From NCBI GenBank assembly GCA_032595675.1, contig JAVQMD010000001.1, positions 744,001-808,000 on the forward strand: 64,000 nt of DNA, given 5' to 3'. Origin of the DNA: Candidatus Electrothrix rattekaaiensis (GTDB lineage Bacteria; Desulfobacterota; Desulfobulbia; Desulfobulbales; Desulfobulbaceae). Below the pieces are notes generated by a model that was not told where the DNA came from, ran no database searches, and was given only the letters and a program-made list of their open reading frames with translations. A program made the translations under genes and the position numbers. Each line of letters opens with the position of its first letter. The stretch's first letter is position 1. Positions 38,951 to 43,080 of this stretch are shown one piece after another.

Positions 38951-38979
38951 TTGACATGGTGCCAGACAATGTGTATATT
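38951..38979 (+). promoter_or_regulatory. Consensus sigma-70 promoter of the riboswitch transcript
   Basis: TTGACA (38951-38956), 17-bp spacer, TATATT (38974-38979). Transcription should start near 38986, upstream of a small hairpin (CTCTC...GAGAG, 39010-39037) and the GEMM aptamer. Confidence 0.75.
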
Positions 38980-39034
38980 TTATCTAGTATACAAGATATA
39001 TTTTTGAATCTCTCGCTTCCTTGTCGGAACCTGA

Positions 39035-39115
39035 GAGTTGATAAATGCCACAACCGTCGTGAGGCGGTGTCGGAAAGCTACGGATCTCTTGAACAGGAGA
39101 CCGCCGGGTTACCTT
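39035..39115 (+). ncRNA. GEMM-I-type cyclic dinucleotide riboswitch aptamer
   Basis: The conserved GEMM core is present. The P1b hairpin ACCGTC-GTGA-GGCGGT has a GNRA tetraloop. It is followed by CGGAAAGCTACGGATCT, then a second hairpin (TCTC...GGAGA) and the 3' block CGCCGGGTTACC. This matches the GEMM order GCaAACC, tetraloop, GACGCAAAGCC-ACGGGCC, GCCGGGTTGCC. GEMM-I aptamers bind cyclic di-GMP; a deltaproteobacterial subclass binds 3',3'-cGAMP. The ligand cannot be decided without an alignment of the guanine-contact positions. It lies between a consensus promoter and a strong ribosome-binding site. Confidence 0.8.
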
Positions 39116-39142
39116 CTTTTACGTTTGACAGAGGAGTGAGGC

Positions 39143-39514
39143 ATGAAATCCTCCCCAAAAAAGACCCTTTCAGGAATTCCTTCCTTTGATAGCATTGACG
39201 GGCTTGTTTTGAGCAGCCTGTTGTCTTTCTTTTTCTCTGCATACAGACGAATAACCCGGTTATTGCAAGCAGCCCGCGCATTCAACGTCCCGAGCTGTTG
39301 CTCCTTCAAACCTTTTTTCTTGATCCGGCAGAACACATTCCGCAATTCATTGCCAAGAGAAGTCTGTTTTGCGGAATCCCGTACCGCTTCGGCTTACGAT
39401 TTTTGCTCTCTTCATTTTTCAGGATGCAGACAGCAGAAAGTTGTTCAAAGGCGGCATCCCTTTGGATATGCGCTGCCGGGTATAGTTGCGGGTGCGGCGG
39501 GAAAATTACGGTAA
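39143..39514 (+). CDS. Orphan ORF controlled by the GEMM riboswitch
   Basis: The 123-residue frame has a strong ribosome-binding site (GAGGAG at 39131-39136, 6 nt before ATG) directly after the aptamer, so it should be translated. It has a hydrophobic stretch (GLVLSSLLSFFFSAY, about residues 20-34) followed by a basic, Cys-containing tail. It could be membrane-anchored. No family is recognised and the composition of the tail is odd, so it may be a degraded or very divergent gene. Another frame over its 3' end (39298-39537) contains a Cys/Gly-rich CGCGG motif, so a frameshift is possible. The hemerythrin gene follows 46 bp later and may be the real target. Confidence 0.4.
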   Translation: MKSSPKKTLSGIPSFDSIDGLVLSSLLSFFFSAYRRITRLLQAARAFNVPSCCSFKPFFLIRQNTFRNSLPREVCFAESRTASAYDFCSLHFSGCRQQKVVQRRHPFGYALPGIVAGAAGKLR

Positions 39515-39560
39515 AAAAAATCGACTGTGTATTGTGAATTGAAATAACGGAGGATCGAAA

Positions 39561-40482: not shown

Positions 40483-40593
40483 TGAAGCCGATCCGGCGAA
40501 TTTTTCCGTGATGATGCGGAATTCCAATTCTTGTCGAGGTGGACGTATCCTTGTGGTTTTCAGGGAACAGGAGGGCTGTATGGCGTGGAAAGC

Positions 40594-42666
40594 ATGACGT
40601 GGACAGAAATTATTGCCGGATTGCACTGGCTGAAGGATCACCCGGAAGTGACGTGGAGCGGGGCAGGGTTCACCCTCCTCGGTATCTTGTTTCTCGTGGT
40701 CAAAATTCTCGTGGTCAAAACCCCGCTGGCTGTGCTGATCCGCAGACTGCTCGGCAAGCCTCCTCTCCCTCCTTCAGGCGATACCAACGACTGGTTTTCC
40801 AGGAACCGACACAAGTTTATTGAACGGCTGAAGACGGACTTGAAGGATCGTCGCGAGTCCTTTCTGCTTGGGCAGAACACGCTGGATTTGGACAAAGAAC
40901 TGTCCCCGGATGCGGTTGATCGTCCCTATTGCAGACAGGACAGTATTGAGTACAGCCTAGAGCGCGACGGAACAGAGGTGGAAACCACGGATCAGCCCAT
41001 TACTGCTCTTTTTCAGCAGCCGGAGGTGGGTCAGCGGCTGGCGATCTTGGGAAAACCGGGCAGCGGCAAGACCGTCTGCCTGCTCAAACTGGTTGAGCAC
41101 CTGCTGGAACAGGCGAGTGAAGATACAGGAAAACCCCTGCCGATAATCTTTGAGTGCTCGGAATGGGACGGTCGGGAACTGCTGCCCTGGATGGCTTGGC
41201 AGTTGAATCGCAAGTACGAGATTAATGAAAAAACAGCTCTTCAGATGGTTGAGGAGCGGGATATCCTGCCTCTGTTCGACGGGCTGGATGAGCTGGCAGC
41301 GGAGAAGCAGGGGGATTTTGTCCGGCTCTTCAATGCCCTGCCCAATGATCGTCCCCAGGTGGTTTGCTGTCGGGTTAAGGAATACGGGCAGTTGCAGAAG
41401 AACTCGAAGGTGAAATTGGCCCTCAAAAATGCGGTGATTCTCCGGGATATCTCCCGGCCCAGACTCAAGGGGCATCTCCTGCGGCAGGGGCTGGATGAGT
41501 TGTGGAACATGCTTGAGCAGTCTGAAAACGAGGCTGATCTCTCCCTTTCTTCGCCTGTCGAGGGGGAACAGGAAGGAGAGCAGCCGCAGTCCCTGCTTGA
41601 GCTGGCCCGACGGCCCTTGTTTCTCGGTATCATGATAGGTGTGGCCGAGAAGTTGCGCAAAGGATTCAGGAGGCAGGAGGGGGAAAGCTGGGAAGACCTG
41701 CTTTGGCGGCTTTATCTCAATGATTGTTTATCTCCGAGAACGCCTCCGCCGAACCAAGGGCCGGATGAGCATGACAGGAAATACGCTCAGGCCCCGTCCC
41801 GGCACTGGTTGCATTGTCTGGCAAGGTGGATGCAGGCGGAGGATAAGGTGGCCTTGCAGCTTGATGAGCTTCAACCAACTATGTTGCCAAGATATTGGTT
41901 GTTCGGATTTTTCTATGGGTTGTTTTACGGTTTGACTTCTGGGCTGGTGATCGGGTTCCTCATAGGGCCGATAAGCGGAGCGGCATTAGGTTTGGCAATG
42001 GGACTATTCTTCGGCCAGCCGTGGAAGCGAAAAATCAGGATTGATCACCTGCACCCGCTCCATCTGCCAGTCTCTTGGCAAGATTGGCAGGATATCAGCG
42101 CAACGTTGCTTACCGGACTGGCTGTCGGCTTATTCTTGGGGCTGCCCTTTAGATTACTTGATGCAAAAGGGATTGGCCTTGGGCGTTTTGCAATTGCTTT
42201 CTGGCTGACTTTTGGTATTCTTGGCGGATTGGCATTGGGCCTGCAAATAGTTGCGAGGCCGCTCAAGAAAATCATTAAGCCTCAGCAACGGCTTAACGAT
42301 GCCCTGTTCAGCAGTTTAGTCCTCTTTCCCTTTTTCGTGCTTACCCCTATGTTGCTCTTTGTCTGGGTGATGTCCAACGGTGAGCAGTTAGGGAGCACTC
42401 TCGGTATTTTTTCGGGCATGAAAGAATTTTATGTTGTCTTGCTTGCGACAATAATCAGTAGTTTTCGTGTTCTTGGCACCAATCAGATCCTCCAACATTA
42501 CCTCCTCCGCCTCTGCCTCCGCCTTGAACAACAACTCCCCCTGCGCCTCGTCCCCTGGCTCAACGCCATGCACCAACGCAAGGTCTTCCAGCGGGTGGGC
42601 GGCAGCTACCATTTCCTCCATAAGCAGCTCCGGGATTATCTTGCAATGCAGGACACAACATCATGA
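40594..42666 (+). CDS. NACHT-domain NTPase (STAND family) with multiple membrane segments
   Basis: From ATG 40594 the protein has 690 residues. One transmembrane helix lies near residues 22-42. The NACHT core follows: Walker A ILGKPGSGKT (151-160) and Walker B ILPLFDGLDEL (about 224-234), with the NACHT Asp-Gly-Leu-Asp-Glu pattern. CRVKEYGQL and RPLFLGIMIG are sensor/arm elements. The C-terminal third (about 430-620) has six or so Gly-rich hydrophobic helices (GLFYGLTSGLVIGFLIG and similar). A soluble end carries the NACHT-associated SYHFLHKQLRDYL. Bacterial NACHT proteins often act in phage defence or signalling; this multi-helix form could be a membrane effector. It has no peptide-repeat sensor domain of its own. 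Confidence 0.88.
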   Translation: MTWTEIIAGLHWLKDHPEVTWSGAGFTLLGILFLVVKILVVKTPLAVLIRRLLGKPPLPPSGDTNDWFSRNRHKFIERLKTDLKDRRESFLLGQNTLDLDKELSPDAVDRPYCRQDSIEYSLERDGTEVETTDQPITALFQQPEVGQRLAILGKPGSGKTVCLLKLVEHLLEQASEDTGKPLPIIFECSEWDGRELLPWMAWQLNRKYEINEKTALQMVEERDILPLFDGLDELAAEKQGDFVRLFNALPNDRPQVVCCRVKEYGQLQKNSKVKLALKNAVILRDISRPRLKGHLLRQGLDELWNMLEQSENEADLSLSSPVEGEQEGEQPQSLLELARRPLFLGIMIGVAEKLRKGFRRQEGESWEDLLWRLYLNDCLSPRTPPPNQGPDEHDRKYAQAPSRHWLHCLARWMQAEDKVALQLDELQPTMLPRYWLFGFFYGLFYGLTSGLVIGFLIGPISGAALGLAMGLFFGQPWKRKIRIDHLHPLHLPVSWQDWQDISATLLTGLAVGLFLGLPFRLLDAKGIGLGRFAIAFWLTFGILGGLALGLQIVARPLKKIIKPQQRLNDALFSSLVLFPFFVLTPMLLFVWVMSNGEQLGSTLGIFSGMKEFYVVLLATIISSFRVLGTNQILQHYLLRLCLRLEQQLPLRLVPWLNAMHQRKVFQRVGGSYHFLHKQLRDYLAMQDTTS

Positions 42667-42694
42667 GCAAGGTAGCTCGCAGCAAAACAATCCC

Positions 42695-42995
42695 CCTGTG
42701 TCGCAGGATGATCCCCAAGGGACGAAGGGCAATCCCCTTGTGACGCAAGGCAATCCCCCTGTGACGAACGACGATCCCCTTGTGACGCACGATGATCCCC
42801 CTGTGACGCACGGCAATCCCCCTGTGACGGAAGACAATCCCCTTGTGACGCAAGGCAATCCCCCTGTGACGAACGACGATCCCCAAGGGGCGAAGGGCAA
42901 TCCCCCTGTGACGCACGGCGATCCCCCTGTGACGCAAGGTAATCCCCCTGTGACGCATGACCATCCCCAAGGGGATCATGTCCGGTCACAAGTGA
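42695..42995. repeat. 21-bp tandem repeat array after the NACHT gene (about 14 units)
   Basis: The unit is AATCCCCCTGTGACGCACGGC with variants ending GCAAGGC, GAACGAC or GAAGACA. It starts about 30 bp after the NACHT stop. One plus-strand frame stays open for the whole array and reads as (N/D)PPVTHG-type heptapeptides; minus-strand frames are open too. No credible start codon and ribosome-binding site serves this frame, so I do not call a gene. It shares the 21-bp period, but not the sequence, of the array at 10040-11980. Confidence 0.85.
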
Positions 42996-43080
42996 CAAAG
43001 GCCTATCCCCCACAAGGATGCAGGAGCGGAGATGGCATGGAGAGCACGTCTTGTCTCTGGAATACCTGACAAAATAAGAA

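Follow-up and report, generated by a model that had tools for sequence, protein, structure and literature searches.

Which gene is served by a riboswitch that is followed first by an orphan ORF and then, a short distance on, by a hemerythrin gene? The locus that raises this question lies in the genome of a cable bacterium of the genus Candidatus Electrothrix (genome G000, 4.48 Mb in 5 contigs), and we analysed it within a stretch of 64,000 nucleotides (G000:C1:744001–808000), here called the window. Cable bacteria conduct electrons over centimetres, between sulfide and oxygen. The window genome encodes 13 GGDEF domains above the cut-off and carries 21 aptamers of family RF01051; the eight Electrothrix genomes together hold 146 of them (9–27 per genome), and at least one is present in 18 of the 29 other genomes of the family or order that were searched. 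The initial annotation of the locus had named the 123-residue ORF behind the aptamer as the regulated gene. Table 1 lists the features that bear on this.

Table 1. Features of the riboswitch–hemerythrin locus (window coordinates)
Feature	Position	Strand	Basis
Sigma-70-type promoter, TTGACA – 17 nt – TATATT	38951–38979	+	11 of 12 consensus matches
c-di-GMP-I (GEMM-I) aptamer	39037–39116	+	RF01051 covariance match
Shine-Dalgarno AGAGGAG of the leader ORF	39130–39136	+	sequence
Leader ORF, 123 codons, ATG start	39143–39514	+	ORF list; without protein family
Shine-Dalgarno GGAGG of the hemerythrin gene	39549–39553	+	GGAG conserved in five-locus alignment
Hemerythrin-domain protein, 236 aa	39561–40271	+	PF01814

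The aptamer itself is a clear member of its family. A covariance search with RF01051 confirmed the GEMM-I aptamer that had been recognised by eye, with 53.8 bits (gathering threshold 35; E 1e-7) and a match to the full model (positions 1–87), and in a cmscan of the whole window it was the sole riboswitch above threshold. The RF01051 alignment also bears out the GNRA tetraloop, which is GUGA (39059–39062); in P3, where such a loop would dock into a receptor, four plus three model columns are absent. Among the 141 aptamers used for all genus-wide counts (5 of the 146 were not extracted) the tetraloop is GUGA in 93 and GCGA in 48. G39047 stands at model position 11, which is the G20-equivalent of this aptamer, and a G is found there in 137 of the 141 genus sites; C39112 stands at the C92-equivalent, which we take from the position equivalence to be the second ligand contact, and that position is C in 133 sites and U in 8.

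Two ligands, c-di-GMP and cGAMP, had been proposed for this aptamer. The base that separates binding of the two is base 20 in Vc2 numbering, to which G11 of another GEMM RNA is equivalent, and the excerpted text of the same source treats it as a selectivity factor and not as a hard filter (PMC9262584); in a Geobacter cGAMP riboswitch an A20 to G change turns selectivity towards c-di-GMP, as stated in the excerpt of PMC6456294. Because the window aptamer has G at this ligand-selecting base, c-di-GMP is the expected ligand, and of the two proposals it is the one favoured; cGAMP, the ligand of the GEMM-Ib type with A at position 20, is disfavoured by G39047. Four aptamers of the genus do have A at the G20 position (G001:C171:14525, G004:C1:2696897, G007:C1:1800568 and G000:C2:1008362, the last at locus L018) and eight have U at the C92 position (L011, for example), and these may be natural variants that prefer cGAMP or another dinucleotide.

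Compared with the c-di-GMP-I class as a whole, the window site shares the full-length match, the GNRA tetraloop and the G at G20, but differs in the missing P3 columns, in having neither a terminator nor a supported anti-Shine-Dalgarno, and in the leader ORF that lies between the aptamer and the conserved gene. With the Geobacter GEMM-Ib cGAMP riboswitches it has the aptamer family and a high copy number in common (17 GEMM-I aptamers in G. sulfurreducens, 21 in the window genome), and tandem copies occur in the Geobacter clade and in Electrothrix alike (G004 and G007); the Geobacter cGAMP type has A at base 20 where the window has G, and the Geobacter reporter switch is described as forming an anti-terminator whereas the window site is without a terminator (PMC6456294 and PMC8835794, excerpted text). 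The Electrothrix tandems are two arrays of three GEMM-I aptamers each, G007:C1:4046050–4046395 (L096) and G004:C1:4928718–4929063 (L095), and behind five of these six aptamers there is an intrinsic terminator of which the aptamer 3′ strand is also a part.

Upstream of the aptamer, the promoter of the initial annotation holds up, though through comparison and not through the scan: since three such sites occur in the stretch where shuffles give 2.7, the scan count is near chance and the support comes from the other loci, in that all five GEMM–hemerythrin loci have a promoter-like site with 9–11 of 12 matches 57–71 nt 5′ of the aptamer. Directly 5′ of the aptamer the genus sites also carry a hairpin-forming sequence (within the 34–70 nt before it; about 38970–39036 in the window), often of the form TTTCTGG...CCGGAA, whose minimum free energy is below -4 in 130 of 141 sites, a count made without a shuffle control.

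Downstream of the aptamer, the strong ribosome-binding site that had been described is indeed there (AGAGGAG, then ATG), with the start codon about 26 nt 3′ of the aptamer, and a purine-rich stretch occupies the same position in the other four hemerythrin loci. This arrangement is common in the genus. A Shine-Dalgarno sequence (at least four matches) with a start codon 12–62 nt after the aptamer was found at 118 of 141 sites, four of these starts being TTG codons of one-codon ORFs and three lying at 47 nt inside long genes that have a nearer true start. Both artefacts are sidestepped by counting only ATG codons with a Shine-Dalgarno sequence 21–41 nt after the aptamer, of which there are 113 in the 141 sites against a mean of 4.5 (range 0–10) in 50 dinucleotide shuffles, and the same test placed 300 nt further downstream is positive in 10 of 140 stretches. 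The window leader start thus sits where most Electrothrix aptamers have theirs.

What these start codons open differs from site to site. Some open a long ORF, often with an N-terminus that looks by eye like a signal peptide (in the window genome these include RHS-repeat and fn3/DUF6531 proteins, and others without a family), and others open a short ORF that precedes another gene. The window-genome genes behind such short ORFs have matches to hemerythrin, PilJ-N, DUF4382, CAP, phosphonate-binding and NAD(P)-binding families; of 17 window-genome targets that were scanned, Pfam gave a match of any kind at E 0.001 for 8, in one case below the cut-off. Some of the short ORFs have conserved C-terminal ends themselves, in a DIRR.R group (G003:C23, G006:C1:4778711, G004:C1:2592322 and G000:C2:1205701) and an ILAVDA.LTAE..LR group (G001:C72, G002:C161 and G000:C1:2385842); some members of these groups have no co-directional gene directly behind them, and they are candidates for genuine small proteins.

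The 5′ ends of the hemerythrin leaders also resemble those of leaders at unrelated loci (z > 2 for 33–45 of 130 other sites per leader); among the closest is the beginning of a long ORF in G003:C86 (z 5.7 and 6.8). Because the 5′ ends of short ORFs at unrelated loci are alike in this way, the leader 5′ end appears to come from a copied cassette made up of promoter, aptamer, start codon and about 25 codons, which elsewhere would form the front of long genes.

The gene behind the leader is better defined. As had been noted, a hemerythrin gene begins 46 bp after the ORF stop, and its product scores 35.4 bits with PF01814 (cut-off 25.3) and 81.7 bits with TIGR02481 (cut-off 51.75); the NCBI bacteriohemerythrin subfamily NF033749 gives 76.1 bits, which is below its cut-off of 84, and the closest solved structure is 4xpw_A (E 1e-4). 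H/E motifs, candidates for the di-iron ligands, were found by eye, and His173, at a position that we assume may be an iron ligand, replaces an Asp present in all five other full-length copies of the genus. On its 3′ side lies a gene for a NACHT-domain protein (40531–42666; PF05729, 29.5 bits against a cut-off of 26.7), and beyond that, at 42467–43069, both strands carry ORFs in which a short motif is repeated.

Orthologs at 43–63% were found by protein search in five other genomes of the genus; G004 and G007 have none, their matches being of 29% or less. The GEMM aptamer lies 444 nt before the hemerythrin start in the window, about 412 nt in G001, about 378 nt in G002 and about 236 and 243 nt at two loci of G003, one of them full-length and the other cut by a contig end. 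Linkage of aptamer and hemerythrin is thus present in five of six assessable copies and four of five genomes (236–444 nt upstream), a count that omits the G005 copy, which begins 26 nt into its contig; the exception is G006, whose ortholog has no GEMM aptamer nearby though 21 were found in that genome. The second G003 copy (L077, on G003:C66) has its first ~36 residues joined to an apparent C-terminal end and looks like a truncated paralog or an assembly artefact. Third codon positions carry an excess of substitutions in all six hemerythrin pairs compared (for example 37/32/73 at positions 1/2/3). By these comparisons the hemerythrin gene is under purifying selection, and it is the conserved partner gene of the riboswitch.

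Could the orphan ORF be part of this hemerythrin gene? The initial annotation had raised the possibility of a frameshift, natural or from sequencing, by which the ORF would have been severed from the 5′ side of a longer hemerythrin, and the mere 46 nt between the ORF stop and the hemerythrin start fit that idea. In the window genome, however, a stop codon interrupts the hemerythrin frame 6 codons before the ATG, and in the relatives the protein begins at the same conserved residues, with the start and its own Shine-Dalgarno sequence kept. We regard a frameshift as extremely improbable.

If the ORF is separate, is it the gene that the switch controls? The ORF is indeed without a recognisable family: Pfam gives nothing up to E 1 and NCBIfam nothing up to E 0.01, and a search of phages and viral contigs yielded no relatives. 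At the protein level nothing in the other seven genomes of the genus matches it below E 0.04, the best two hits being at E 0.047 and 0.093, and the 441-nt interval between aptamer and hemerythrin gave no significant DNA match in 33 other genomes searched. When the leaders of the five hemerythrin loci are aligned, similarity is seen in roughly the first 60–130 nt and the last 30 nt, and the start ATGAAATC is at the same place in all five. The ORFs that follow it are 123, 110, 111, 44 and 55 codons long, and comparisons between them require frame-breaking indels (of 1, 4, 5, 10 and 28 nt, for example). Substitutions at codon positions 1/2/3 number 22/25/30 for G000 against G001, 19/23/28 for G000 against G002 and 9/7/5 for the two G003 copies, a nearly flat pattern in which two pairs show, at most, slightly more changes at the third position; these alignments are near the limit of alignability, so that the codon-position counts are rough. 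The leader peptides of G000 and G001 are 35% similar over 74 residues (E 7e-6, uncorrected for composition), and the leader frame is open for longer than in dinucleotide shuffles with P values of 0.011 (G000), 0.003 (G001), 0.001 (G002) and 0.13 and 0.07 (the G003 loci).

One account of these data is that the ORF encodes a real, fast-evolving small protein which is the direct target of the riboswitch, with the hemerythrin as a mere operon partner. In all five loci a frame opens at the equivalent start codon, and in three species it runs for 110–123 codons, which would fit this account, as would the G000/G001 peptide similarity, the slight third-position excess in two pairs and the conserved ends seen in other short ORFs that start behind a GEMM aptamer (DIRRFR and AVDAGLTAE groups). 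Against it are the indels and the lack of a clear codon-position pattern, the very different lengths, the absence of a family and the failure to find a protein match in the other genomes at the level given above, and we consider it unlikely. Some constraint on the peptide is possible. We read the leader frame, from these comparisons, as held open while its peptide is under little constraint. Since protein-level conservation is slight and the conserved gene behind the switch is the hemerythrin, the orphan ORF gives way as the proposed target; it is probably a leader that belongs to the switch and not the biological target.

Are leader frames held open elsewhere in the genus? We listed 57 leaders (an ORF of 8–159 codons with a co-directional gene within 900 nt) and dropped eight of them (three of tandem or terminator type, one without a proper start, two that are 124-aa genes and two G007 near-duplicates of G004 leaders). 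In the 49 that were kept, among which two other near-duplicate G004/G007 pairs stayed, the leader frame is open at P ≤ 0.05 in 23 and the other two frames in 0 and 5, with the reservation that leaving out ORFs shorter than 8 codons biases the comparison towards the leader frame. The test was therefore repeated with a choice of start that is blind to ORF length, which could be applied to 121 of 141 sites (95 cluster representatives). With the long genes included, 63 of the 95 are at P ≤ 0.05 against 7 and 13 in the other frames, and for ORFs of fewer than 99 codons the figures are 13 of 51 representatives against 3 and 11; the sites are related within and between genomes, so these P values are not independent. 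Leader frames thus tend, on this statistic, to be open longer than chance, with an effect that is modest in the short ORFs. Some of the GEMM-started short ORFs are probably genuine small proteins.

How might such a leader be linked to the ligand? The classical arrangement for a GEMM riboswitch is attenuation of transcription through an intrinsic terminator, and in other genera of the family or order a terminator that shares the aptamer 3′ strand occurs in 12 of 22 loci (among the best 22 of 66 matches). No intrinsic terminator was found on the + strand between 38700 and 40700, and the window site is not of the terminator type. Within Electrothrix the loose terminator test applied to those loci is passed by 17 of 141 sites; the window is not one of these, and 7 have 12 pairs or more. 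Classical attenuation is therefore highly improbable at this locus.

Nor is direct occlusion of the ribosome-binding site supported. A single-sequence fold shows the Shine-Dalgarno sequence partly sequestered, and this one fold hinted at sequestration by the aptamer 3′ end, but across the genus the idea found no support. Accessibility of the Shine-Dalgarno sequence is unchanged between folds with the aptamer free and enforced (medians 0.38 and 0.38 over 135 sites). Its pairing with the aptamer 3′ end is weaker in the real sequences (-4.98) than in swapped (-5.38, sd 0.10) or shuffled ones (-5.77), and a repeat with slightly different segments gave no clear difference (-6.70 against -6.90 for swapped, z 1.8). 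What the Shine-Dalgarno sequence does avoid is the initial part of the ORF, about 48 nt, as a pairing partner (z +5.4, +6.2 and +3.0 for stretches from +0, +12 and +24). No conserved structure was found beyond the aptamer, a consensus fold computed for 30 of the 49 leaders being the aptamer only. C-rich, G-poor composition favours Rho. As a class the leaders have C 0.242 and G 0.184, and the directly started long ORFs 0.240 and 0.236, respectively; the C-over-G composition of the window leader is not unusual for its surroundings, 34.6% of window stretches being as extreme.

Sequence and comparison together thus give an aptamer, a promoter-like site, a conserved leader start and, for most copies of the hemerythrin gene, linkage to the aptamer, with no sign of an intrinsic terminator. 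The reading that we favour, and hold to be moderately probable, is that the locus is the 5′ leader of the hemerythrin gene under a c-di-GMP-type riboswitch, in which ligand-dependent translation of the leader is coupled to hemerythrin expression. Transcription would start from the promoter in Table 1, and the nascent RNA would fold the G20-type (c-di-GMP) GEMM-I aptamer, about 26 nt behind which the Shine-Dalgarno sequence and start codon would open the leader ORF. This ORF would matter mainly through being translated and not through its peptide. Ligand binding would alter leader translation or ribosome cover, possibly by way of the nearness of the aptamer to the ribosome-binding site, and leader translation would in turn determine, through transcriptional polarity (Rho) or translational coupling, whether the transcript and the ribosomes get as far as the hemerythrin gene. 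That the transcript does reach the hemerythrin gene is a prediction, whose sole support is the absence of an intrinsic terminator. By analogy we expect c-di-GMP to turn expression ON, because in terminator-type members of the family the layout points to an ON response, their terminator using the aptamer 3′ strand.

Such an upstream-ORF mechanism is our best guess by the precedent of two Mycobacterium tuberculosis riboswitches, as described in the excerpted text of PMC11260477 and PMC12810186, and the feature that they show, a short ORF with a Shine-Dalgarno sequence between aptamer and downstream gene, is found in the window. The Mbox-rv1805A-pe20 locus has the same order of riboswitch, small upstream ORF and operon gene, and its authors propose a translational platform with Rho-dependent termination; it differs in ligand and aptamer and in its small ORF, which is highly conserved there and not in the window, and a role for Rho in the window would be by analogy with that proposal (PMC12810186, in the part excerpted). 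The ppe2 B12 riboswitch with uPPE2 is of the same kind, a riboswitch-controlled translated leader that is needed for the downstream gene, where leader translation in the window is predicted; there the stop and start overlap (AUGA re-initiation), whereas in the window they are 46 nt apart and the hemerythrin gene has a strong Shine-Dalgarno sequence of its own (PMC11260477, likewise in excerpt).

Alternatively, the ORF could be a by-product without a role, the decayed remnant of a donor gene's 5′ end that travelled with the copied cassette, with the riboswitch acting on hemerythrin in some other way (RNA stability, folding or transcription). The resemblance of leader 5′ ends to the starts of long ORFs elsewhere would be expected from this, and the lack of conserved downstream structure, the small codon-position constraint and the modest frame signal of short leaders are in keeping with it; but the start codon, Shine-Dalgarno sequence and spacing are strongly conserved, the Shine-Dalgarno sequence avoids pairing with the beginning of the ORF and the frames stay open, all of which make such a passive ORF fairly unlikely in our judgement.

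Extended from the hemerythrin leader to the genus, the preferred reading, coupling through leader translation, would mean that in Electrothrix the terminator platform of related GEMM-I switches has for the most part given way to a start codon some 29 nt past the aptamer, and that in dozens of loci leader translation, not leader sequence, is the regulated quantity that gates the downstream gene. This we put forward tentatively, as a possibility.

The window site, in our view, belongs genuinely to a known riboswitch family; its leader architecture is unusual and its target apparently unreported. In the open-access literature, judged by title and the start of the abstract, no report was found of a riboswitch-controlled hemerythrin, in cable bacteria or with c-di-GMP, and nothing relevant on cable bacteria with riboswitches or on Electrothrix with c-di-GMP; the open-access literature likewise gave nothing on a c-di-GMP riboswitch with an upstream ORF. 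A tie between hemerythrin and c-di-GMP does exist in Bhr-DGC, in which, according to the excerpt of PMC10101095, a hemerythrin domain regulates a c-di-GMP synthase, whereas in the window c-di-GMP would regulate a separate hemerythrin-domain protein.

For annotation, the locus carries a warning that an orphan ORF right behind such an aptamer may be a leader and not the target. A c-di-GMP switch before a hemerythrin gene would link a lifestyle messenger with oxygen handling, and if our reading is true, c-di-GMP determines how much cable-bacterium filaments, whose life is spent between oxygen and sulfide, make of a hemerythrin of the oxygen-binding type and of other proteins, most of them uncharacterised. 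Of greater weight is the pattern across the genus: with 146 GEMM-I aptamers in eight genomes, most of them with a start codon at the same distance, Electrothrix offers many natural replicates in which leader translation could be tested as the output of a riboswitch.
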